Assembly: GCA_902799905.1 (NCBI GenBank)
Contig: CADCCB010000008.1
Coordinates: 19,600 to 83,599 of the forward strand
From: an uncultured Prevotellaceae bacterium
GTDB lineage: Bacteria; Bacteroidota; Bacteroidia; Bacteroidales; Bacteroidaceae
Length of the DNA: 64,000 bases
Reading direction: 5' to 3'
Every line of letters begins with the position of its first letter. Position 1 is the first letter of the stretch. A program made the translations under genes and the position numbers. This document shows, one piece after another, positions 9,809-27,862 of this stretch. The notes beneath the pieces are model-generated. The model was not told where the DNA came from. It saw nothing but the letters and a program-made list of their open reading frames with translations, and made no database searches.

Positions 9809-11620
9809 ATGAAATATATAAATAAAATAGGTGTAGTGCTGCTGGGAGGCATGGTGCTTGCTGCAGCATCTTGTGCCGACTATTCCGACTACAATACCGC
9901 ACCAGTCGATGAGTTGGCTGGTGCCAACAAGACGCTGTGGGAGAATATTTCCGAAGATCCGCAACTGACCAAGTTTGTCGCGCTGGCTCAGAAGTGCAAG
10001 TACGACAAGGTACTCAGTAGTGCGAATTTCTATACCGTCTGGGCTCCTACCGATGGTTATATCAGCAACGACGAGTACACCCGCCTGCTCAACAGCGACA
10101 GTGCCGTCATCGTCAAGCAGTTCATGCAGCAGCACATCACCGACTACAACCACCCTGTGTCGGCCAACCTCGACAGCATGACGATTATCTCGCTGAACCA
10201 GAAGCACCACCCGTTCACCCAGGCCACGTTCGACGGCTTCACCTATAGTGCCGTCAACCAGCCCTCTACCAACGGTTTGATGCATAAGATCAACGGCTAC
10301 TCGCCCTATCGCACCAATCTCTATGAGAATATCGACTCGCTGGCCGGCTGCGACTCCATCAAGAAGTACCTGCAGCAGTACGACGAGTGGTATCTCGACC
10401 CGCGTGCCTCGGTGCTCGGTAAGATTATCAACGGTGAGCAGACCTACGACGACTCTGTGATGAAGAAGCGCAACACCGTCATCACCAGGATTATGCGTGC
10501 CGACCTGGAGCAGGAAGACAGCACCTATTGTATGCTCGTTCCCAACAACAAGGCCTGGGAAGATGCCTACAAGAAGATAGCCCCCTGCTACGCCTACATC
10601 AAGAAGATGGACTATATGGACCTGTCGAAGAAGACGGCTACTGCCGACCAGTTGAAAGCCACCGATGCCAAGGCCGATAAGGCCTCTGAGACAACGGGTG
10701 AAGTCTATCAGGACTCGCTGACATGCTACAACCTGGTCAACAACCTGGTGTTCTCACATTCCTACCAGCGCAACTATCCTCTCTTCAATGAGGCTGCGGC
10801 CAATGCCGACGACTCGCTCTATAGCACTTCCCGTCGTTATCTGCAGGATGCCGACCAGATACTCGACCATACGGTGTCCTATGAGGAGATGAGTAACGGT
10901 ATCGCCCGTGTCATCGATTCGCTGACGTTCCGTCCTAACCAGACCTACAACCCCATCATCACTTCTTCAATGCCAGCGAAGACGCTGAAGGTGAATAAAC
11001 TCACATCGGTGAATATCCCGCTTGAGAATCTCGCCGACCGCGACACCCTGTTCAGCGAGGTGCCGGCGATGTTCAAGGAGTTGCTCTTCCCCAAGACCTC
11101 GCGTTTCTTCTCCTATGTGGGAGTTGACAGCGCCGACGTGCAGGGAACAACGGGTAAGCCTGAGTTCAACTTCGCCCTGCCCGGTGTGCGCTCTACGACC
11201 TACCACATCTATGTGGTCACCGTGCCTGAGCAGGTGCGCCGTCCCGAGGCTGCCGTGAAGCCCTACTACCTGCGCTTCTACCTCAGTTATACTGATGCCG
11301 ACAACAAGCAGCAGTACATCGTGCTGCCGCAGGGTGCGAAGGCCAATTCCAAGATTACCACTGCCGATGCAGCAAACACCGCTACGGTGGTCAATCTGGG
11401 CAATCCCGGACGTGTCCATGTCATCGACCTGGGTGAGTTCACGTTCCCTGCCTGCTATTATTCCCTTGATGCCTATCCCAGTCTGATGATGATGCACACC
11501 GAGAGTTACACCTCTGCTGCCCGCAGAAAGAGTTACGACCAGCAGATGCGTGTGGCTGGTGTCTATCTCATCCCGAAGGAATACAACGACAAATGGGCTA
11601 ATTCTGATAACGAAGAATAA
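9809..11620 (+). CDS. Fasciclin-domain lipoprotein
   Basis: 603 residues. The lipoprotein signal ends L-A-A-A-S-C (Cys22). A FAS1-type domain is recognisable near residues 35-165 (D-P-Q-L-T-K-F-V-A-L-A, Y-T-V-W-A-P-T-D, then N-G-L-M-H-K-I-N). A second copy is likely near 215-400 (C-M-L-V-P-N-N-K-A-W), and a beta-rich C-terminal part near 400-590 has Y-H-I-Y-V-V-T-V-P. Its stop codon TAA overlaps the ATG of SusC-2 by one base, which implies translational coupling to that transporter. It is probably an exported partner of the second SusCD pair. Ligand unknown. Confidence 0.75.
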   Translation: MKYINKIGVVLLGGMVLAAASCADYSDYNTAPVDELAGANKTLWENISEDPQLTKFVALAQKCKYDKVLSSANFYTVWAPTDGYISNDEYTRLLNSDSAVIVKQFMQQHITDYNHPVSANLDSMTIISLNQKHHPFTQATFDGFTYSAVNQPSTNGLMHKINGYSPYRTNLYENIDSLAGCDSIKKYLQQYDEWYLDPRASVLGKIINGEQTYDDSVMKKRNTVITRIMRADLEQEDSTYCMLVPNNKAWEDAYKKIAPCYAYIKKMDYMDLSKKTATADQLKATDAKADKASETTGEVYQDSLTCYNLVNNLVFSHSYQRNYPLFNEAAANADDSLYSTSRRYLQDADQILDHTVSYEEMSNGIARVIDSLTFRPNQTYNPIITSSMPAKTLKVNKLTSVNIPLENLADRDTLFSEVPAMFKELLFPKTSRFFSYVGVDSADVQGTTGKPEFNFALPGVRSTTYHIYVVTVPEQVRRPEAAVKPYYLRFYLSYTDADNKQQYIVLPQGAKANSKITTADAANTATVVNLGNPGRVHVIDLGEFTFPACYYSLDAYPSLMMMHTESYTSAARRKSYDQQMRVAGVYLIPKEYNDKWANSDNEE

Positions 11621-14600
11621 TGACGACGATGAAAAGTACGATCTATAATTTCCTGCAGCGTCAGAGTCTCAGACTCTCACTCTGTGCCTTTGTCCTGACC
11701 GCAAGCACCACTATGGCTTACGCTCAAGATGATATCGACGACGAACAGGTCGAGGAGACCATCAAGGCTCCCAAGCGCACCAAGGTCGTCGACACCAATC
11801 CCACGATGATGGTGAATGGTATCGTCGTCGACGATGCCACCAAGTCACCGCTGGCTGGCGTGCGTGTCCAGACACTCAGCGACAACCGCTATGTGGCGAT
11901 GACCGACGAGGATGGTAAGTTCTCCATCAAGGTGCCGGTGTTCACCACCGCCCTCTTTGTGCAGTCACCGGAATACCTGTCGCAGCAGGTGGCCATTAAG
12001 GCTGGCGATGAGAGCCAGCAGATACGCGTCTTCATGCTGAGCGATGCCTTCGCCTCGATGTATACCGACGGCACCACCATCACCGCCAAGAACGCTTTCA
12101 TCTCCAATGGCAGCGGTATCACCGTCGATGAGGAGATGACCCAGCGCCTGGGTGGCGACATCCGCATGAATATGCATTCGGGCAACCTCGACCAGGGTGC
12201 TGCCATTTTCATCCGTGGTATCAGTTCCGTCAACGCCAATGCCCAGCCCCTCATCATCCTCGATGGTGTGGAACTCGACATGCAGCGCAACCGTTCGTCG
12301 CTGCACCTGGGCGACATCTTCAATATGCTGTCCACCATCTCTCCCGATGATATCGACAAGGTGACGGTGCTGAAAAATGCCACCGCCCTCTATGGTGCCC
12401 GTGGTGCCAACGGCGTCATCCTCATCGATACCAAGCGCGGCCACTCCATGGCTACCCGTATCGATGCCAACGTCGGTGTGGGCTGGACCTTCGTGCCCAA
12501 CTATCCCACGATGATGGATGCCACGCAGTATCGCAACTATGCCGTGGAGCAACTGGGTACCATCCCCGAAGTGCAGGACCGCATCGGCTCTGCCACCAAC
12601 CCCCTGCAGTTCAACTTCCTCAACGACCAGCCGGGCTACTACTATGAGACCTATCATCAGAATACCGACTGGAGCGACTATGTCTATCGCACGGCGCTGA
12701 CCCACAACTACAGCATCAACGTGCAGGGTGGCGACGACATCGGTATGTACAACCTCTCCGTGGCCTATGTCCAGACCATGAAGAATATCTCGGCTACCAG
12801 TTACGACCGCATCAATGTGCGCTTCAATACTGACATCAGCCTGCTGAGCAACCTCTATACGAAGTTCGACATGTCGTTCTCGCGTTCGAATACCAACCTC
12901 TTCGACGACGGCATCCTGTCCGACCTCAACAGCGGTACCATCACTTCGCCGGCATTCCTGTCGCTCATCAAGAGCCCGCTCATCAGCCCCTATCAGTACA
13001 ACAACAACATCAAGAGTTTCACCTCGCTGCTGGCTGATGCCGACGACCTCTACGGCACGCTGAAGGAAGGCAACTACTCGCTGGCCAACCCCGTGGCCCT
13101 GATCCACAACGGCACCGGCGAGCGCAAGAACCGTAATGAGAACACCTTCTTCAATGTGACCATCACCCCGACCTTTGAGTTCAACCAGAACTGGAAGGTG
13201 ACCTCTCACTTCAGTTACTACCTGAACCGTAACTCTCAGGCCTACTATCGTCCCAACCTCGGACTGCCCTCCTTCGCCATCGAGAACCTCGGTACCGTCT
13301 ATAGCAAGGCGGCCTCCATCTTCTCTAAGGAGAACAATGTGCTGAGCAACACCCATGTGGACTTCAACAAGAAGTTCGGTGCCCACACCGTGGCTGCCAC
13401 TGGCGGCTTCCGCTACAACTATTTCTCCTTCGACAACAGCGACCTGGCTACCGAGTACAAGAACAAGCAGGACAACGACAAGAACCCGACGCTGGCCACT
13501 GGTACGGCAGTCTATTCTACCGTGACCGGTGCCGACGATGTGTGGAAGAACATGCAGTGGTATGTCTCTGGCGACTATAACTACATGAACAAGTATTTCG
13601 CTACTGTCTCTCTGACGGCAGAGGCCAACAGCCGCTTCGGTTCCAATGCCAGCGGCGGCATCAAGGCCTTCGGCACCAAGTGGGCCATCTTCCCCAGCAT
13701 CCAACTGGGCTGGGTGCTCACCAACGAGAAGTGGTTCCCCAAGAATTCAGGCATCGACTACCTGCGCCTCAATGCCGGCTTCGACATGAGCGGTAACGAC
13801 GATATCTCCAACTATGCCGCACGCACCTCTTTCAATACCGTGCGCTACAACAACAACGAGATTGGTATCCAACTCACCAATGTGGGTAACGAGGAGATCA
13901 AGTGGGAGACGACGTCGAAGTGCAATCTCGGTCTGGAGGGCAACTTCCTCCACAACCGTCTGGCTGTGCGTTTCGACTACTTCATGCACAACACCAAGGA
14001 CCTCCTCGTGCTGAAGACCTTCGAGAACCCCGTAGGTGGTATCAACAACTACTGGACCAACGACGGCGAACTGCGCAACACCGGCTTCGAGGTCGGCATC
14101 AGCGGCAAGCCCGTGGCCCTGAAGGACTGGCACCTGGAGATTGGCGCCACCCTCGGCCACTATGTCAACAAGGTCAAGTCGCTGGCTAATGGCGACTACA
14201 CCTCGTCCATCTATGGCGACAACAACATCCTTACCGCCGTGGGCCACTCCGTCGGCGTGTTCTATGGCTATCGCACCAAGGGCATCTTCCGCGACACCGA
14301 GGCAGCCAACAATGCCGGCCTCTACATCGTCGATGAGACGGGTGCCAAACAGTATTTCCAGGCTGGCGACGTCATCTTCGAGGATGTCAATGGCGACCAT
14401 GAGATCAACGAAGCCGACAAGGTCGTCATCGGCGATCCCAATCCCGACATCTACGGCAACCTCTTCCTCAACCTCAACTGGAAGCGCTTCACCCTCAGCA
14501 CCGTCTTCAACTACAGCCTGGGCAACGATGTCTACAACTACCAGCGCTCCGTGCTCAACAGCGGCTCCACGCTCTACAACCAGCAGGTGGCCGAGGTAGG

Positions 14601-14940
14601 CCACTGGCGCTACGAGGGACAGAATGCCGACCTGCCGCGTGTCAACTATGGCGACCCCATGGGCAACAACCGCTTCTCCGACCGCTGGATCGAGGACGGC
14701 TCCTACCTGCGCCTGAAGTCGGTGCGCCTCACCTATCAGGTGCCCATGCCCGAGTCATGGCAGTCTTGGCTCCAGGGCATCTCCGTGTGGGCTGAGGGCC
14801 GCAACCTCTTCACCCTCACCAAGTACACTGGCAGCGATCCCGAATTCTCGGTGGCCAACAGCCAGTTGTATCAGGGCATCGATGCCGGCACGCTGGCTCA
14901 GGGTCGCACCTTCTCCATGGGCGTGAAGATCAACCTGTAG
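11620..14940 (+). CDS. SusC-like TonB-dependent outer-membrane transporter (SusC-2)
   Basis: 1106 residues. The start at 11620 overlaps the previous stop. An ATG three codons on (11629) is equally good and also leaves a signal peptide ending A-Y-A-Q. An acidic linker (D-D-I-D-D-E-Q-V-E-E) precedes the carboxypeptidase-regulatory-like domain (about residues 63-140). The plug follows, with F-I-R-G-I-S-S-V-N-A-N-A-Q-P near 197 and V-T-V-L-K-N-A-T-A-L-Y-G-A-R-G-A-N-G-V near 247, then the barrel. It pairs with SusD-2 downstream. It is diverged from SusC-1, so the two systems probably handle different or successive ligands. Confidence 0.95.
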   Translation: MTTMKSTIYNFLQRQSLRLSLCAFVLTASTTMAYAQDDIDDEQVEETIKAPKRTKVVDTNPTMMVNGIVVDDATKSPLAGVRVQTLSDNRYVAMTDEDGKFSIKVPVFTTALFVQSPEYLSQQVAIKAGDESQQIRVFMLSDAFASMYTDGTTITAKNAFISNGSGITVDEEMTQRLGGDIRMNMHSGNLDQGAAIFIRGISSVNANAQPLIILDGVELDMQRNRSSLHLGDIFNMLSTISPDDIDKVTVLKNATALYGARGANGVILIDTKRGHSMATRIDANVGVGWTFVPNYPTMMDATQYRNYAVEQLGTIPEVQDRIGSATNPLQFNFLNDQPGYYYETYHQNTDWSDYVYRTALTHNYSINVQGGDDIGMYNLSVAYVQTMKNISATSYDRINVRFNTDISLLSNLYTKFDMSFSRSNTNLFDDGILSDLNSGTITSPAFLSLIKSPLISPYQYNNNIKSFTSLLADADDLYGTLKEGNYSLANPVALIHNGTGERKNRNENTFFNVTITPTFEFNQNWKVTSHFSYYLNRNSQAYYRPNLGLPSFAIENLGTVYSKAASIFSKENNVLSNTHVDFNKKFGAHTVAATGGFRYNYFSFDNSDLATEYKNKQDNDKNPTLATGTAVYSTVTGADDVWKNMQWYVSGDYNYMNKYFATVSLTAEANSRFGSNASGGIKAFGTKWAIFPSIQLGWVLTNEKWFPKNSGIDYLRLNAGFDMSGNDDISNYAARTSFNTVRYNNNEIGIQLTNVGNEEIKWETTSKCNLGLEGNFLHNRLAVRFDYFMHNTKDLLVLKTFENPVGGINNYWTNDGELRNTGFEVGISGKPVALKDWHLEIGATLGHYVNKVKSLANGDYTSSIYGDNNILTAVGHSVGVFYGYRTKGIFRDTEAANNAGLYIVDETGAKQYFQAGDVIFEDVNGDHEINEADKVVIGDPNPDIYGNLFLNLNWKRFTLSTVFNYSLGNDVYNYQRSVLNSGSTLYNQQVAEVGHWRYEGQNADLPRVNYGDPMGNNRFSDRWIEDGSYLRLKSVRLTYQVPMPESWQSWLQGISVWAEGRNLFTLTKYTGSDPEFSVANSQLYQGIDAGTLAQGRTFSMGVKINL

Positions 14941-14981: not shown

Positions 14982-15018
14982 ATATGCAAATAGAAAATAT
15001 ACTTAATTGATAAAGATT

Positions 15019-17058
15019 ATGAAAGATTATATATATAATAAGACAAAAGAGTTACTTCGTTTTGTGGTCTATATACTCCTCCCCCTCACAGGGGGAGGCT
15101 GGATGGGGGTCTCTTGCTCCGACATGCTCGAGGCTGACAGTTCGCGCCAACTGTTCGAACCGGGGCTTAACGAGAAGACCGACTCCGTCTTCTATGCCTA
15201 CGGCATCATGCAGGCCATGCAGCAGGTGGCCGACCAGTACTATTTCCAGAACGAGTTGCGTGGCGACCTGGTGAAGACCACCGACAAGGCCACCACCCAC
15301 CTGCGGTCGCTGGCAGCCTTCAAGGCCGATGCCAGCAACAAGTACGACAGCGTGTACCTCTACTATAAGGTCATCAACAACTGTAACTACTATCTGGCCC
15401 ATCGCGACTCCACGCTGCGCACGGGTAAGCAGAACGTCGTCATCAACGAGTATGCCGCCGTCGCCTCCTTCCGTGCCTGGTCCTACCTGCAACTGTCGCG
15501 CCAGTATGGCGAGGTGCCCTATATCACCGAGCCTGTGACCACCATCGGCCAGATCAACTCCAGCACCGCCATGACGCCCTGGGAGACCATCCTTGCCGGT
15601 GAGGCCCGTATGCTCGAGAACCTCAAGTCGCACTATACCGACGAGGAACTCTCCGTGCCCACCTTCAACAGGACCACGGCCGTCAATATCGGTACGCTCA
15701 ACAGGGGTGGCGACAAACTCATCTACCCCAGCAAGTGCTTCGTGCCCCTCAATGTGGTGCTGGGCGACATCTATCTCGAGTTGGGACAGTACGACAAGGC
15801 TGCCAAGTGCTACTACGACTATCTGAGATACAACGGCCAACTCGAAGCCGGCAGTATCTCCGTCAACTATACCACGGCGCTCTCTACCAGTTTCAGTCAG
15901 TACAGCCCCATCTTCAAGAACTTCACCGAGTGGCCCGTTGACTACAACTACACCAAGAACGCCACGAACGCCACCCTCGGCGGTTCCACTTGGCTGAACT
16001 CCTTCTTCCATGCCGCTGCCCCTGGCGATGTCATCTCCTACATCCCGATGGCTGTCAACTACACCACCGGCAAGACCACCGATGTCCCCGCCGCCTTCGG
16101 CTACGACTACTACACCACCACCTCGGGCAGCGATGTCTCTTTAGACAATTCCTATACTGTCCCCTTCAACTGTCCCCGTACTGAGAACATCCAGGTGGTG
16201 CCCTCGCAGTCCTATTGCGACTCGGCCCGCACGGCAACCTATTATTACTATGGCGACGAGTTGAGCATCGCCCCCTACTGGGATATGAAGAGCGTGCGCC
16301 TGGGCGATGCCCGTGCCCGTCTTGTGGCCCAGGGCACTGGTGCCGACTCCACCTATGTCTATTGCTACAAGCCCTCCACGGCCTATATCCTGCTCTACCG
16401 CAATGCCACCGTGTGGCTCCATCTGGCTGAGGCCCTCAACCGCATGGGCTATCCCGATGCCGCCTTCGCCGTGCTGAAGAACGGTCTGAACAACGACCTG
16501 CGCAACCGCTACTACTACGAGGTCTATCAGAAGGATGCCGACGGCAACTTCATTCTCGACGACGATCAGAACAAGGTGCTCGATGCCAACCTGTCACACG
16601 TCGATCCCGACAGGCATTATCTCGCACCCGCCACCTATGAGTTGCTCACCACCACGCTGCCCTTCGCCTCTGACGAGAACTCAGAGATCTTCAAGTCCGC
16701 CTATATCGTGGGTATCCACTACCATGGTGCCGGTGCCTGTCAGGATCCCTATTCCCTCTATCGCTACCGTAGTGTCGTCGGTGAGAAGTTGGCAGATATC
16801 AATGCGAAGTTCGGGCTCAACCTGACGCAGTACACCAAGCAAGACTCCATCAATGCCATGGAGGATCTGCTCTGCGACGAGTATGCCATGGAGTTTGCCT
16901 TCGAGGGCACCCGCTTCTCTGACCTGCGCCGTCTGGCCAACCACAAGAATGCTGCCGGTCTCTATGGCGGTAATTTCGGCGATGCCTGGCTCTCCCGCAT
17001 GCTGCAGAACAATGCCGCTGGCATCACCACCAAGAACTGCTACCTGCCGTATAAGTAA
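15019..17058 (+). CDS. SusD-like outer-membrane lipoprotein (SusD-2)
   Basis: 679 residues from the ATG at 15019. An upstream TTG at 15007 only adds four residues. The lipoprotein signal ends G-V-S-C (Cys33). Most of its hydrophobic stretch, L-P-L-T-G-G-G-W-M-G-V, is coded by a GC-rich palindrome that looks like an inserted REP element. The mature part has the helical SusD core (A-S-F-R-A-W-S-Y-L-Q-L near 155, L-A-E-A-L-N near 470) and the C-terminal E-Y-A-M-E-F-A-F-E-G-T-R-F-S-D-L near 620. It is somewhat longer than typical SusD proteins. It is the last gene of the locus, followed by a terminator. Confidence 0.93.
   Translation: MKDYIYNKTKELLRFVVYILLPLTGGGWMGVSCSDMLEADSSRQLFEPGLNEKTDSVFYAYGIMQAMQQVADQYYFQNELRGDLVKTTDKATTHLRSLAAFKADASNKYDSVYLYYKVINNCNYYLAHRDSTLRTGKQNVVINEYAAVASFRAWSYLQLSRQYGEVPYITEPVTTIGQINSSTAMTPWETILAGEARMLENLKSHYTDEELSVPTFNRTTAVNIGTLNRGGDKLIYPSKCFVPLNVVLGDIYLELGQYDKAAKCYYDYLRYNGQLEAGSISVNYTTALSTSFSQYSPIFKNFTEWPVDYNYTKNATNATLGGSTWLNSFFHAAAPGDVISYIPMAVNYTTGKTTDVPAAFGYDYYTTTSGSDVSLDNSYTVPFNCPRTENIQVVPSQSYCDSARTATYYYYGDELSIAPYWDMKSVRLGDARARLVAQGTGADSTYVYCYKPSTAYILLYRNATVWLHLAEALNRMGYPDAAFAVLKNGLNNDLRNRYYYEVYQKDADGNFILDDDQNKVLDANLSHVDPDRHYLAPATYELLTTTLPFASDENSEIFKSAYIVGIHYHGAGACQDPYSLYRYRSVVGEKLADINAKFGLNLTQYTKQDSINAMEDLLCDEYAMEFAFEGTRFSDLRRLANHKNAAGLYGGNFGDAWLSRMLQNNAAGITTKNCYLPYK
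15078..15112. repeat. REP-like palindrome inside the SusD-2 signal-peptide codons
   Basis: A perfect 9-bp stem, 15078-15086 with 15090-15098, closes a 3-base loop and is followed by a G-rich tail to about 15110. It lies fully inside the reading frame of SusD-2 and supplies residues just before the lipobox cysteine. Confidence 0.6.
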
Positions 17059-17085
17059 TCCCCAAAATATACCTGGCAAGAATCT

Positions 17086-17130
17086 GTGCGTCAGCATCCA
17101 GTTTCCCTGGTGCTGACGCACTTTTTTTTG
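17086..17130. terminator. Rho-independent terminator after SusD-2
   Basis: An 11-bp perfect stem (17086-17096 with 17111-17121) with a smaller inner CCAG/CTGG pairing is followed by eight T. It ends the SusCD/fasciclin operon and directly abuts the convergent RAYT gene. Confidence 0.9.
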
Positions 17131-17131
17131 C

Positions 17132-18502
17132 TTAGTACCACCACGTGTCTTTCTGCCTACATATTGCCTGACAGACACAGTTCATAGTCTTACAAAAAGG
17201 AACCGTGATATTCTCTTCCTGAGTCATAAACTGATAAGACCAAGGTGTCAACAATAGCAGATTTCCCGTTGCACAGTCATCCATCCTGTCGGCCGAAGGA
17301 TGATAGATTTCTGGAAAACCGTTATCTTCAATCCTGACAACGGCATATCCCGACAACAGGGCTTGGTCAATGATTTCTTGTTCACCCCTTGCAATGCGTG
17401 CAGAGACCAGCACAGCGCCAGAAGCCGCTTCAGCCAGGCATCGCCTTTTCTGTTGCTCAAACAATTGGGCATCCTTACGATGACAAACCACAGGGAGCAA
17501 CCGTCTGTTCAGTAAGGTCAGGTTTCCATAACTATCACACACCACCCGTCCATTATTCTTCAGCAGTCGCTTCTCTATCAATCCAAAACTGTCAGCAGTC
17601 AACTGCTGAGGGCATTCCCGTTGCAGATACCCTTTCAAGGCTGGTATGCTCACGGCAGTATCCACGGTATGGCATTGCGGATAGAGCCATTCGCGATTGG
17701 TCACCCTCATCAGGCGATTGCGAGGGTTCGCAAGGATATACGCCCGTTGCGTAGCCATCTGCGTCTCATCAACTGGCATCACGTCGCAGTAGCCCGCATC
17801 GAATAGCGGTGGCAGCGCCCCTCCCGATGCAGCATGCTTGACGACTGAATCGCCAAGCGCACTATTGCTTCCCGTTGTGCCTTCGCTCTCGCTTCCCTGC
17901 GTGCTTTCGCTTTCCTGCGTGCTTTTGCTTTCTGGTTTGCTTTCGCTCTTGCTCCCGCGCGTGCTCTCGCTCTTGCTCCCAAGTGTGCTCTCGCTCTTGC
18001 TCCCGCGCGTGCTCTCGCTCTTGCTCCCAAGTGTGCCTGGCGATTCAGTCGCCAGGCCCTCATTCTCCCCGTATCCTTCCTGGGCAATCTTTCCCGTCAT
18101 CTCCCAGTAATGCCTGTTGCACCCCAACTTGAAACCAGCAATCACATGCCCCAGGTGCGTGGCCCTCCCGCTCTGCGACACCACATTGCTATGCGCCATC
18201 AACAGGAAGTGCAGATGCTCAGGCATCACGACATATTCCACTACTTCCAACATAGGATAGTACCGCCGGATGCTCTCTCGCAGTTCCTTCTCCACCATCT
18301 TTCCGATAGGCGATAGTTCCACGTGCGGACCATCGCTGTCGCCATCAGGCTTGTCCAGCCTTCCTGCGATCCTTCCCAAGGGCTGACGCAGCCCCTTCGC
18401 AACACTTATCGTGATATGATAGCAGCCCTTCCTGCTATAGTCATGTGCATGACTGCGCCGTTTCATGCTGTGTATCGTTGGTTTCTTAAAAGCCTCATTC
18501 AT
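17132..18502 (-). CDS. REP-associated tyrosine transposase (RAYT, HUH Y1 type) with DprA-like C-terminal extension
   Basis: 456 residues, two to three times the usual RAYT length. Residues 18-135 match the IS200/RAYT fold: Y-S-R-K-G-C-Y-H-I-T near 22, the HUH motif in M-P-E-H-L-H-F-L-L (His97, His99) and a candidate catalytic Tyr132 in R-H-Y-W. Residues 155-205 are a low-complexity Ser/Lys/Glu insert. The family ending Y-I-L-A-N-P-R-N-R occurs near 255-263. Residues 330-445 form an extra domain whose motif order (V-S-A-R-I-A-R-G-E, then D-N-G-F-P-E-I-Y-H-P) recalls DprA/SLOG proteins. RAYTs nick and join REP hairpin DNA as single strands; such hairpins lie at 14953 and 15078. An in-frame ATG at residue 13 is an alternative start. 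Confidence 0.8.
   Translation of the reverse strand: MNEAFKKPTIHSMKRRSHAHDYSRKGCYHITISVAKGLRQPLGRIAGRLDKPDGDSDGPHVELSPIGKMVEKELRESIRRYYPMLEVVEYVVMPEHLHFLLMAHSNVVSQSGRATHLGHVIAGFKLGCNRHYWEMTGKIAQEGYGENEGLATESPGTLGSKSESTRGSKSESTLGSKSESTRGSKSESKPESKSTQESESTQGSESEGTTGSNSALGDSVVKHAASGGALPPLFDAGYCDVMPVDETQMATQRAYILANPRNRLMRVTNREWLYPQCHTVDTAVSIPALKGYLQRECPQQLTADSFGLIEKRLLKNNGRVVCDSYGNLTLLNRRLLPVVCHRKDAQLFEQQKRRCLAEAASGAVLVSARIARGEQEIIDQALLSGYAVVRIEDNGFPEIYHPSADRMDDCATGNLLLLTPWSYQFMTQEENITVPFCKTMNCVCQAICRQKDTWWY
17937..18032. repeat. 24-bp tandem repeat inside the RAYT gene
   Basis: Four units of 24 bp (units at about 17937, 17961, 17985 and 18009) alternate between two versions that differ in a 5-base block (CGCGC or CAAGT). 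On the coding strand they encode Ser-Lys-Ser-Glu-Ser-Thr-type octapeptides. Frame is kept, so copy-number change would not break the gene. Confidence 0.85.
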
Positions 18503-18525
18503 CGTCAGAAATCATTTCAACACCG

Positions 18526-18533
18526 CAAAGGTA
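18526..18533 (-). promoter_or_regulatory. Predicted -7 promoter element of the RAYT gene
   Basis: On the minus strand this reads TACCTTTG, matching the Bacteroidetes -7 consensus TAnnTTTG. It lies about 24 bases before the ATG. No clear -33 element was found. Confidence 0.6.
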
Positions 18534-18856
18534 ATGAAAATAAGCATGAGGACCAAAGAAAAGCGCGCTTTTTGCTACTTGCTGACGACTGTCCGTGAGG
18601 ATAGCGGCCATTTTAGTGATAGTAATGTGTCAGTCACTTGCTAACGAAAGGTTGCAAGAATGCTTATTGTTATCAACTAATTTTTTGAACATCAAAAAAG
18701 TTACACAAGTTACACTTTTGCTATATCTCTTTGATTTACAGATAGATATTTTAGTGTACCTTTTTTGTAAAGTTACACTAACCTACACCATTGTAAGATT
18801 GGATGTTAAGGTGCTGATAATAAGGTGCTTATATTGAAGGCATGCTCTCTATTGGT

Positions 18857-18942
18857 ACAAAACAACTTGTTTTGTTCTTGTAGAAACTATCTCTACGAGT
18901 GGAAGGAAGCATTCCTTTCGGAACAAAACAAGTTGTTTTGTT
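18857..18942. repeat. Pair of near-identical palindromes in opposite orientation
   Basis: At 18857-18875 a 9-base arm, a central C and its complement form a perfect palindrome. At 18922-18942 the reverse complement of the same sequence occurs, with 10-base arms and a central G. Between them is a short hairpin at 18903-18917. Such paired dyads are typical of protein-binding or recombination sites. Confidence 0.65.
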
Positions 18943-19208
18943 ACTGAAGGTTATATCTCTTCAACTCATAGAAACAATTCTTTCTCTGAGTGTCGCCGTT
19001 CCCATGGTTGGAAAGAACATAAATCTTCATAAATCAAACATAAATCTTTCGCTTCTTGTTATTCTTTATTGGGGGAAGTCTAATTGTGGGAAATTATGGG
19101 AAATTTTATTTAGTATAGTTTCTTACTATTATGGGAGTCTAATTGAGTTGAAGTTGGGCTCTTAACATAGTTTAACTGGCGAAATGACCGCAGGACGGGA
19201 ATTTTATT

Positions 19209-19216
19209 TACTTTTG
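19209..19216 (+). promoter_or_regulatory. Predicted -7 promoter element of the secreted mosaic protein gene
   Basis: TACTTTTG fits the TAnnTTTG consensus and ends 26 bases before the ATG at 19243. Confidence 0.55.
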
Positions 19217-19242
19217 CATGAAAGATTATTACATAAAAAGTC

Positions 19243-20466
19243 ATGTTTAAACGATTCATTTTATTTCTCTTCCTGCCTCTAATAGGCATTCAATCAGTCA
19301 AGGCAACTGACATCTATGTGAAAGTCACCTCGACCAGTGATCTGATCCCAGGTGCAAAATATATCCTAGCGGCAACGGAATCCGGAACACCTTATGTGGC
19401 GACAGGTTATAATTACGAAGGTTATTTAGCTACAACATCTTCGGGTTGTAGTATTAGCATTGATGGCAATGTCATAACCATTAGTACGGCAAATCCTATT
19501 GTATTTACACTTGGTGGTAATTCGTCTGGGTATACTCTTAAAGATAATCTGACGGCAAAGTATTTGGGTTATGGCACTGGTACTTCTTTAAGAGAATCTG
19601 AAACAGACACGGATAGTAGTGAAAAATGGACCTACACCTACAACAATACCAGTAGTTCGTTTCTTTTGAAAAATGTTGGTGAAGACACCAGGATGCTATT
19701 TGGGCGTACATTTGGAACTAAACCGAATGAATATTATGCATTCCGGGCAAATACAACGGCGGCAATAACTAATAAACTTGCTCCAGCAAACCTATACCGC
19801 AAAGTTTCCGCTGTTACCCTTGCCTCTGCTTGTACTGATGGAGTGAAATACTATGGGACATATAGCAATGAGAGTGCTTTTGTGGTACCGAGTGACCTGA
19901 CGGTGTCCGAGATAAAGGTGACCGATGGGAAATTGACGGTGGGTAACTACTCGACAGGTGACGTGGTGCCAGCCAACACGGGTGTGATGATATCTTCCAG
20001 TACAGCGGGAGATCATAGCGTGACGCTGACCAGCGCGGCTGGCAGTTCTGTCTTTGGCTCGGAGAATATGCTGAGACCAACAGGCAGCGGCATCACTGCT
20101 GAGGCGATGGCTGCGGCTGATGGCGGATGTAAGTATTATCGTCTGACGATGCATAACGGCACGGCGCTGGGCTACTACTGGGGAGCCGCCGATGGCGCTG
20201 CCTTCGCATTGGGTGCCAACAAGGCCTATCTGGCCGTGCCAACGGCGAGTGCCCGTCTGACTGGCTTTGATATGGCAGATAGCGAAACAACCGATATAAG
20301 GGTAAAGGGAATAGTGAATAGTGAAAGGCAACGGGTAGGCGACGGAACGTCGGGAATGGAATTTGCTGCCGTCGCGGTGTATGACTTGCAGGGCCGTCGT
20401 GTGGCTGACTCTTCATTGAAGAAGGGACTTTATATCGTGAACGGGAAGAAATATATCATTAAATAA
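19243..20466 (+). CDS. Secreted protein of unknown function with C-terminal sorting-type tail
   Basis: 407 residues. The signal peptide (about 1-21) ends V-K-A. Residues 25-185 look like an all-beta domain. Residues 195-350 form a second module with the phrases F-V-V-P-S-D-L-T-V, G-D-V-V-P-A-N-T-G-V, N-M-L-R-P-T-G-S-G-I-T-A and Y-Y-R-L-T-M-H-N-G-T. The end, V-Y-D-L-Q-G-R-R-V followed by K-G-L-Y-I-V-N-G-K-K, resembles the C-terminal sorting tail (type IX-like) found on many Bacteroidetes secreted proteins. The first half of the gene is AT-rich and the second half GC-rich, as if two modules of different origin were joined. I cannot name a function. Confidence 0.7.
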   Translation: MFKRFILFLFLPLIGIQSVKATDIYVKVTSTSDLIPGAKYILAATESGTPYVATGYNYEGYLATTSSGCSISIDGNVITISTANPIVFTLGGNSSGYTLKDNLTAKYLGYGTGTSLRESETDTDSSEKWTYTYNNTSSSFLLKNVGEDTRMLFGRTFGTKPNEYYAFRANTTAAITNKLAPANLYRKVSAVTLASACTDGVKYYGTYSNESAFVVPSDLTVSEIKVTDGKLTVGNYSTGDVVPANTGVMISSSTAGDHSVTLTSAAGSSVFGSENMLRPTGSGITAEAMAAADGGCKYYRLTMHNGTALGYYWGAADGAAFALGANKAYLAVPTASARLTGFDMADSETTDIRVKGIVNSERQRVGDGTSGMEFAAVAVYDLQGRRVADSSLKKGLYIVNGKKYIIK

Positions 20467-26515: not shown

Positions 26516-27862
26516 ATGAATAAGAGAATGGACTGGCAGCAACTCATTTCCAACTGCCGACTGGGACAGGAACACCGTCATCTGGAACGGCATGACGACA
26601 GGACGGAGTTCAAGCGTGACTACGACCGACTGATATTCTCGGCCCCCTTCCGTCGCTTGCAGAACAAGACGCAGGTGTTCCCCTTGCCGGGGAGCATCTT
26701 TGTGCATAACCGGCTGACCCACTCGCTGGAGGTGGCCAGCGTGGGCATGTCGCTGGGTAATGACGTGGCCCGTCACCTGTGCTCTAAAAACCGCGATTTC
26801 ATCGATACGATGATACCAGAGATAGGTCAGATAGTGTCTACCGCCTGTCTGGCTCATGACTTAGGTAACCCGCCTTTCGGACATTCAGGAGAGAAGGCCA
26901 TACAGACCTTCTTCACCGAGGGCAAGGGCGCCTATCTGAAGGAACGGGTGTCGCCCGCCTTCTGGAGCGACATCACCTGCTTCGACGGTAATGCCAACGC
27001 CTTCCGACTGCTGACCCATAGTTTCAAGGGGCGCCGCCAGGGTGGCTTTGCCATGACCTACAGCACCCTGGCCAGTATCGTGAAGTATCCCTTCCCCTCT
27101 TATGTCTCGACGAAGAAGAAGTTCGGCTTCTTCACTACCGAGCGTGAACACTACGAGGCATTGGCTGGGCAACTGGGCATCCCCCAACTGTCGGCAGAGC
27201 CCGGTCAGGAGCGGTGGGCCCGCTATCCGCTGGTCTATCTAGTGGAGGCTGCCGATGACATCTGCTATGAGATCATGGATCTGGAAGATGCCTATAAACT
27301 GAAGATACTGACGCTGGACGAGACGATGGAGTTGATGCTCTCTTTCTTCGATGAAACTGGCAAAAAACGTATCGATGAGCGTATCAGCGACGAGCACCTG
27401 AGCGACCCCAACGAGAAGGTGCAGTACCTGCGGGCCTGCGTCATCGGCAAGTTGGAGAACGAGTGCGTGCGTACCTTTATAGAACATGAGGAAGACATCC
27501 TCTGCGGCACCTTCGAAGGCTCGCTCATCGACCATATAGGAGAACAGCAGCGCGAGGCCTATAAGAAATGTACGCAGGTGTCGAAGGCTCGCATCTACCG
27601 CAGTCGCCCCGTGCTGGACGTGGAACTGTCGGGTTATCGTATCATGGCTACCCTGATGGAACTGATGGTAGAGGCGATAGAGCATCCTGAGCGTTACTAC
27701 TCGCAGCAACTGATAGGGCGCGTCAGCAGCCAGTATGACATAGAGAACGACGACCTGGAGACGCGTCTCATGGCTGTCATCGACTACATCAGCGGCATGA
27801 CTGATGTCTATGCCCTGGATGTGTACCAGAAGATTTGTGGCATATCACTGCCTATCATATAA
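26516..27862 (+). CDS. dgt: Deoxyguanosine triphosphate triphosphohydrolase (dGTPase)
   Basis: 448 residues from 26516; the ATG at 26528 (M-D-W-Q-Q-L) is an equally good start. More upstream starts are unlikely because they precede the promoter. HD-domain motifs: R-R-L-Q-N-K-T-Q-V-F near 42, H-N-R-L-T-H-S-L-E-V near 56, H-D-L-G-N-P-P-F-G-H near 105 (HD pair), and the late D in V-E-A-A-D-D-I-C-Y near 235. It cleaves dGTP or other dNTPs to the nucleoside and triphosphate, tuning dNTP pools. The HD hydrolase and ung follow. Confidence 0.92.
   Translation: MNKRMDWQQLISNCRLGQEHRHLERHDDRTEFKRDYDRLIFSAPFRRLQNKTQVFPLPGSIFVHNRLTHSLEVASVGMSLGNDVARHLCSKNRDFIDTMIPEIGQIVSTACLAHDLGNPPFGHSGEKAIQTFFTEGKGAYLKERVSPAFWSDITCFDGNANAFRLLTHSFKGRRQGGFAMTYSTLASIVKYPFPSYVSTKKKFGFFTTEREHYEALAGQLGIPQLSAEPGQERWARYPLVYLVEAADDICYEIMDLEDAYKLKILTLDETMELMLSFFDETGKKRIDERISDEHLSDPNEKVQYLRACVIGKLENECVRTFIEHEEDILCGTFEGSLIDHIGEQQREAYKKCTQVSKARIYRSRPVLDVELSGYRIMATLMELMVEAIEHPERYYSQQLIGRVSSQYDIENDDLETRLMAVIDYISGMTDVYALDVYQKICGISLPII

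Follow-up and report, generated by a model that had tools for sequence, protein, structure and literature searches.

Why a RAYT transposase should carry a long C-terminal extension, and what that extension does, is the question raised by P0001, an open reading frame (ORF) of 456 amino acids (aa) on the minus strand at positions 17132-18502 of a 64,000-nucleotide stretch of DNA (the window) from contig 8 of the 3.42-Mb draft genome of an uncultured Prevotellaceae bacterium. An initial annotation, made from the sequence alone and naming no strand, described the gene as a RAYT fused to a DprA-like domain, and profile alignments, the model of a relative (L068) and family-wide conservation bear this out. 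We read the encoded protein as an HUH/Y1 single-strand endonuclease of the TnpA_REP type that belongs to a distinct clade within the Bacteroidales and has a DprA-type Rossmann domain at its C terminus (the C-domain), with putative roles in handling single-stranded DNA (ssDNA) and in self-recognition. The probability of this reading as a whole is about 0.6. The fused RAYT/DprA-like architecture is virtually certain, self-recognition through a hairpin inside the gene has an even chance of being correct, and the ssDNA-handling mechanism falls slightly short of even odds.

The HUH/Y1 core of P0001 is split in two. Its upstream half (residues ~12-134; 18101-18469, minus strand like all parts of the gene) contains the HUH pair H96/H98 (18209-18217), which forms invariant columns in all 38 proteins of alignment A1 (38 of 45 search hits, the 7 short or partial ones being left out). 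The initial annotation was right about the core, and its numbering of the pair as His97 and His99 is replaced here by H96 and H98. The downstream half (residues 233-275; 17678-17806) contains the catalytic tyrosine helix, in which Y255 (codon 17738-17740, in Y-I-L-A-N-P) and N259 are invariant in 38/38 and P260 is nearly so. Between the two halves, the alignment places a variable low-complexity linker (residues ~135-232; 17807-18100), with SKSEST repeats that form tandem arrays within 17885-18036, as seen by tandem-repeat detection. The protein has the HUH motif, the single catalytic tyrosine in a Y---NP context and the TnpA_REP-like fold that characterize RAYT/TnpA_REP proteins. It scores 24.3 bits against the NCBIfam model REP_Tyr_transpos, under the 80-bit cut-off; Pfam gave nothing useful on the whole protein, and a PDB sequence search with P0001 found no match. 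As judged from its sequence, P0001 belongs to a divergent RAYT subclass outside the curated NCBIfam equivalog.

The C-domain (residues ~322-452; 17147-17539) is a DprA-type Rossmann (SLOG) domain, identified by hhalign, hmmsearch, the L068 model with a structure search, and residue conservation. Family comparisons were based on 93 gene records, namely A1 together with A3 (P0001 and 55 of 81 family ORFs, of length at least 300 and thinned by similarity); these records are related, and some are duplicates (L056 and L092 are apparently the same contig in two collections). A C-domain profile, A4, was built from 56 of the 93 C-domains. In hhalign, the C-domain aligned with DprA at E 2.9e-6 over 123 columns. 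The same loci yielded 40 ORF families, three of which were DprA, the RAYTs and the small DprA-like proteins. The remaining 37, some of them probably antisense ORFs rather than genes, served as controls and reached at best E 0.038 over 25 columns. In addition, hmmsearch with the C-domain gave 13 non-RAYT matches, which had entered the set through searches with A4 or L173 and whose Pfam scan covered all but L189 and L192; nothing else among the 2311 ORFs, nor in the reversed set, scored. The five motifs that had been matched to DprA by eye reappear in the profile-profile alignment, their order unchanged and their positions shifted by 1-2 residues, and the hmmsearch result, the hhalign controls and the L068 fold rule out a chance resemblance.

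The close matches of the C-domain, by profile and by the fold of the L068 model, are all DprA-branch proteins, the nearest relatives found being small stand-alone DprA-like proteins (E 2.8e-12 in hhalign). A Rossmann core with the GSR motif and the motifs that follow it is present in both the hhalign alignment and the L068 fold. Eight positions (G326, V338, G362, E374, P402, G413, L416, and N441) are invariant in all 56 aligned C-domains; the last is the N of DprA's RN, and the segment SPxISxGEK stands at the place of SGLARGID (GLARGID) in DprA. The position of the GSR arginine, which we take to be Arg52 in HpDprA, is occupied by Arg in 46 of the 56 (R342 in P0001).

The initial annotation had aligned five motifs of the extension with the DprA/SLOG pattern. 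The DprA fold is present, and it is incomplete: the last element of the L068 model is the helix corresponding to RNRIIAGLSD of DprA, and the domain of P0001 ends shortly past this helix, after four strands. Only 6-33 residues follow N441 in the 56 C-domains, as against 149-249 after RN in 19 DprA proteins, so the C-domains have neither the last strands (SGSL/KGGxL motif) nor a winged helix. The place of the SAM domain of DprA is taken in the fused proteins by the transposase. RecA loading, which had been brought up with the fusion, finds no support for the C-domain, in which the later DprA segment is missing; with the DprA fold ending at four strands, the domain is unlikely to load RecA in the way that full DprA does.

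DprA-like relatives were seen in other contexts. The stand-alone proteins (L173, L175, L188-L195) are mostly ~150 aa long. In the same order, 15 of 198 genomes contain matches to L173, some of these matches being DprA proper or a fused RAYT. In a 662-aa protein of the phylum (L186:148-2136), two DprA-like domains span 94-314 and 408-583, and the RAYT C-domain profile matches the latter.

The other distinctive feature of the family is a hairpin within the gene. In a scan for perfect stems of at least 9 with loops of up to 8, the linkers of 60 of the 93 records contained perfect hairpins (4.71 per kb), as did the upstream core in 4/93, the tyrosine region in 0/93 and the DprA part in 0/93. Hairpins were also found within 200 nt downstream of 20/92 genes (1.42 per kb) and upstream of 15/93 (0.82 per kb), some of which may be terminators; further out from the gene, the density was 0.10-0.22 per kb. 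Resampling the linkers with synonymous codons over 40 rounds left a mean of 0.5 and a maximum of 2 of 93 with a hairpin.

Outer arms of the form TGTTGY...RCAACA mark 47 sites in 45 of the 93 genes, and 45 of the 47 lie in one reading frame. As the set A9 was picked by these arms, with two of the 47 sites, near gene starts, left out, only its inner pairs are a test. At the four inner stem pairs, 185 of 188 cases show Watson-Crick pairing, compared with a shuffled mean of 90 and maximum of 117, and the anchored sites include seven fully paired stem types. Covariation in A9 gives 74 double-changed cells versus 22.7 (standard deviation 4.1), which none of 500 shuffles reached. A hairpin, as DNA or as RNA, is under selection in the coding linker of many members of the family.

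P0001 contains such a hairpin at 18035-18057 (GCCTGGCGA-CTGAA-TCGCCAGGC on the gene strand, = GCCTGGCGACTGAATCGCCAGGC; 9-bp perfect stem). On synonymous resampling of its linker, a stem of at least 9 arose in 2 of 400 trials. A second, inverted and imperfect copy lies at 17836-17858, so that the two copies flank the SKSEST array; this version differs from the TGTTG type of the family.

TGTTG-type sites also occur within 300 nt outside the gene in 19/93 records. Where a site is present both inside and beside the gene, the inner type agrees at 12 of 14 loci, an agreement reached in 2 of 2000 shuffles. No TGTTG-type palindrome was found in 355 kb of the same loci lying more than 1 kb from the gene. 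Among 60 genomes of relatives, 12 have TGTTG-type sites, 42 in total and some in or at RAYT genes, with none in a backward control; in one of them (G034), 3 of 11 sites are at one RAYT locus and 8 of 11 are on contigs without a RAYT match. A profile search of 18 fetched site loci found no RAYT ORF, and at 14 of the 18 some ORF of at least 100 aa spans the site. TGTTGC..GCAACA palindromes were also seen inside long non-RAYT open frames (L247, L251, L253, also L248, L254, L257, L258, L260, and L262), at position ~1501 (316 in L262); those of L247, L251 and L253 are read as VxVxQQQT-type peptides, the L253 site being near a signal peptide and the L251 frame presumably being MnmG.

The in-gene hairpin is a putative functional repetitive extragenic palindrome (REP). 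Telling against this, 33 of the 93 records have no perfect linker hairpin of at least 9, and these include L002 and L009, to which P0001 is most closely related. Moreover, the P0001 hairpin has only two sites in the genome at up to 3 mismatches, both within the gene, and so is not dispersed. It is possible, if short of probable, that the hairpin acts as RNA, for example as an attenuator or in transcript stability or translation control, and not as a REP DNA substrate. Lying within the reading frame, it is necessarily part of the transcript, and covariation is unable to separate RNA from DNA. The occurrence of like hairpins beside some genes, on either side, and elsewhere in some genomes argues instead for a DNA element, as does the scarcity of G-U pairs (2 of 430 cells in the A9 pair count).

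For the C-domain, ssDNA binding is plausible from its sequence. An unlikely alternative is that it acts as a SLOG nucleotide/ligand-sensing or partner-binding regulator of the transposase, without contacting DNA; SLOG domains act as such sensors in other systems. Two of the DprA relatives, L186 and L199, have an additional match to the SLOG family LDcluster4 (L199 matches STALD weakly as well), and the median isoelectric point of the C-domains, 7.9, is not strongly basic. According to PMC4489622, HpDprA binds ssDNA through Arg52, Lys137 and Arg143. By our mapping from alignment spacing, the last of these three contact positions is lost, being Leu or Met in 56/56, and the position of Lys137 is Val in P0001, though Arg in 43/56. 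A sensor role fits less well with the retention of a GSR-type arginine in 46/56 and with the DprA-branch identity of all close profile and fold matches.

The assignment to DprA itself has further points to answer. Pfam PF02481 was found in only 2 of the 56 C-domains, with a best E of 0.042, and had no match to P0001 or its own C-domain at E up to 10, below the gathering cut-off; single-sequence searches of P0001 and the C-domains against NCBIfam and Pfam gave no significant DprA match. Compared with the PDB by sequence, the A4 profile found no DprA, its only match being ribosomal protein S3 (E 0.06-0.09 over 57 positions). Used by itself, A5, the classical DprA profile, gave only Prob 5 and E 0.0074, the stronger E-values requiring broader DprA sets that include proteins fetched with L173, and the fold evidence comes from a model of the relative L068, not of the window protein.

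Still less likely is a targeting role, in which protein contacts of the C-domain attach the RAYT to RecA, SSB or the replication fork. The function of DprA as a RecA mediator favors such contact; against it, the DprA segment after the RNR helix, which contains much of the dimer/RecA surface, is missing in 56/56. Where TnpA_Y1 proteins have additional, DnaA-like C-terminal domains, these have been proposed to target replication forks (Quentin et al., 2018; PMC6006769).

The fused proteins form one clade of Bacteroidales. In the source genome, the N- and C-terminal halves lie in one open frame at all eight loci that have both (the contig 31 locus runs off the contig end), confirming that the extension is real and conserved. 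The seven other loci are at most 64% identical to P0001 over the aligned pieces and are therefore not recent copies. For comparison, IS200/IS605 insertion sequences are multicopy elements of high identity, with hairpin ends and optionally TnpB. The same extension occurs in Prevotella and other Bacteroidales. P0001 has matches in 24 of the 60 genomes of relatives, the source genome included; G038, G039 and G052 match the N-terminal half alone, and G005, G021 and G027 the C-terminal half alone. A scan of GTDB genomes gave at least 501 relatives, and among the 80 of these that were retained, the match extends at least as far as residue 333 of the 339-residue query in 79 (L122 stops at 251), with record titles of Prevotella, Prevotellaceae, Bacteroidaceae, Muribaculaceae, Bacteroidales, Bacteroidia or Bacteroidetes. 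The named relatives are rumen Prevotella and other Bacteroidales. No match to P0001 was found by tblastn in a phage or a plasmid collection, nor in the viral contigs searched.

Of 198 genomes from the same order, which the named relatives indicate to be Bacteroidales, 9 have a match to the C-domain profile, comprising six with fused RAYTs (the source genome included), one with a broken copy (G174) and two with stand-alone proteins (G147 and G156). Across 296 genomes of the phylum, with up to 13 candidates scored per genome, it matched only the source genome and one DprA-like protein. The HUH core profile of the family matches 92 of the 198 genomes; fused proteins and the broken copy score at least 97.7 bits, and short RAYTs of the same order, with open frames of 114-396 aa among the rows listed, at most 67. 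In a midpoint-rooted HUH-core tree of 64 rows (4 of 68 rows, all short RAYTs without detected core motifs, were dropped), the 44 fused proteins, 42 of them different, form one group with 100/100 support, whose one extra row is the broken G174 copy on a long branch. The simplest reading of the tree is that the C-domain was gained once and lost once.

A ratio of nonsynonymous to synonymous substitution rates (dN/dS) of 0.04-0.15 was obtained for the C-domain in 7 of 9 pairs, those for which it was computable, with 0.07-0.12 for the core in 6 of these 7; as a reservation, dS exceeds 1 in most pairs, making the values rough, and is saturated in both P0001 pairs, where no ratio could be computed. 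A core fragment, apparently a relic, was seen on contig 3 of G000 (27596-27762; L256), adjoined by a TGTTGCGTTGCCAACGCAACA palindrome. It is highly improbable that the gene in its entirety is a remnant, domesticated or decaying, with the C-domain as a functionless passenger. In favor of this reading, low-complexity linkers are common and broken copies exist (G174 and the G000 relic). Against it, the C-domain dN/dS is near that of the core, a selection test that contradicts decay, and the fused rows of the tree are one group, broken once.

In the reading we prefer, a RAYT with a DprA-type partner domain and a REP in its own gene, the HUH half would nick and join ssDNA at REP hairpins, as TnpA_REP and IS608 biochemistry suggests. 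The DprA-like half would bind the single strand beside the hairpin, or oligomerize the protein there, and the cut intermediate would thereby be held, protected or handed to host recombination. With the in-gene hairpin as a REP, the protein could recognize its own gene or transcript, which would tie the gene to its own REP family and could regulate it. More specifically, the protein might be a self-marked ssDNA editing enzyme, whose HUH half cuts the in-frame REP and whose DprA-like half captures the product for recombination or protection, an idea we hold as doubtful. If true, REP spread, autoregulation and recombination mediation would be coupled in one polypeptide. More generally, with its second domain and the hairpin in many of its genes, the family may combine transposon-like editing with DNA recombination in a single protein. 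A C-domain with the fold of DprA, an ssDNA-binding recombination mediator, suggests a specific partner activity, for which deletion of one domain would be a test, and the covarying in-frame hairpin points to a REP-like structure kept by selection at the nucleic-acid level, so that self-recognition by the RAYT is directly testable.

Upstream of P0001, 354 nt from its start codon, lies a pair of perfect 19-nt palindromes, ACAAAACAAsTTGTTTTGT (18857-18875 and 18923-18941; 18857-18941 together), 66 bp apart start to start. The pair is contained in a dispersed non-coding repeat of ~320 bp (18682-19003), of which the genome has almost complete copies, at 72-83% identity, on contigs 15, 3 and 7; in 35 other genomes, matches of 30-47 nt were found in three only. 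The genome has eight such pairs at exactly 66 bp, one with a mismatch, and that of the window alone is beside one of the eight RAYT loci. A cognate relation between the pair and the P0001 RAYT is only suggested, and with one of eight pairs at a RAYT locus we do not claim it as a proven REPIN of P0001.

On one side of P0001, ORFs 11620-14940 and 15007-17058 are in our reading a SusC/SusD pair; on the other is an unrelated ORF at 19243. A hairpin with a T run after it (GTGCGTCAGCA...TGCTGACGCAC; 17076-17131) lies between the 3' end of the RAYT gene and the SusD-like gene and looks like a terminator of the SusCD-like genes. Rfam gave no match on 16500-19500 at E up to 1. In two genomes, a fused RAYT adjoins or lies within 5 kb of a dprA gene or fragment (G022 contig 20, 97977-99986; G009 contig 16, 63653-68928), where we roughly estimate ~0.3 to be expected by chance.

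Compared with known systems, the C-domain differs from DprA/Smf (PF02481; PDB 3uqz, 4ljk and 3maj) in lacking the SAM domain, the winged helix and the strands after the RN helix (SGSL/KGGxL). The DprA-like antitoxin ShosA (PDB 8zva/9vzo), part of a defence system, is a separate protein without an HUH domain, its function being known here from the PDB names. The small stand-alone DprA-like proteins of the same order (~150 aa, e.g., L173 and L175) are unfused, and most retain the later GG motif (A7). RAYT/TnpA_REP proteins proper (E. coli TnpA_REP, PDB 4er8; TnpA_Y1 class 2) are short, whereas the fused records have 322-570 aa and a DprA-like domain.

Within the 12 subclasses into which TnpA_Y1 proteins have been sorted (PMC6006769), the fused family most invites comparison with subclass 2.4, which has flanking REPs, includes Bacteroidetes among its hosts, has a median length of 194 aa with no extension past the core, and is given as the only one with in-frame REPs within the gene. 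The likeness lies in the hairpin between the HUH and Y motifs, seen in 60 of 93 family linkers and in P0001; the differences lie in the length of 322-570 aa with a DprA-like domain and in the place of the insert, which in subclass 2.4 is between beta3 and alphaC and in the fused family comes after the long helix and ahead of the strand preceding the Tyr helix (L068 model). The large C-terminal domains described in that classification are DnaA-like/helix-turn-helix or unnamed, and occur in subclasses without REPs; the word DprA is absent from its main text. In the open-access literature searched, no title or abstract described a RAYT-DprA fusion, an in-gene REP together with DprA was not found, and the fused clade appears to be undescribed there. 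Overall, the fused clade joins an in-gene REP and a large C-terminal domain, which are separate features in that classification. In-gene REPs are already known from subclass 2.4, and what is new here is the combination of a selected, covarying in-frame hairpin with a truncated DprA fold.
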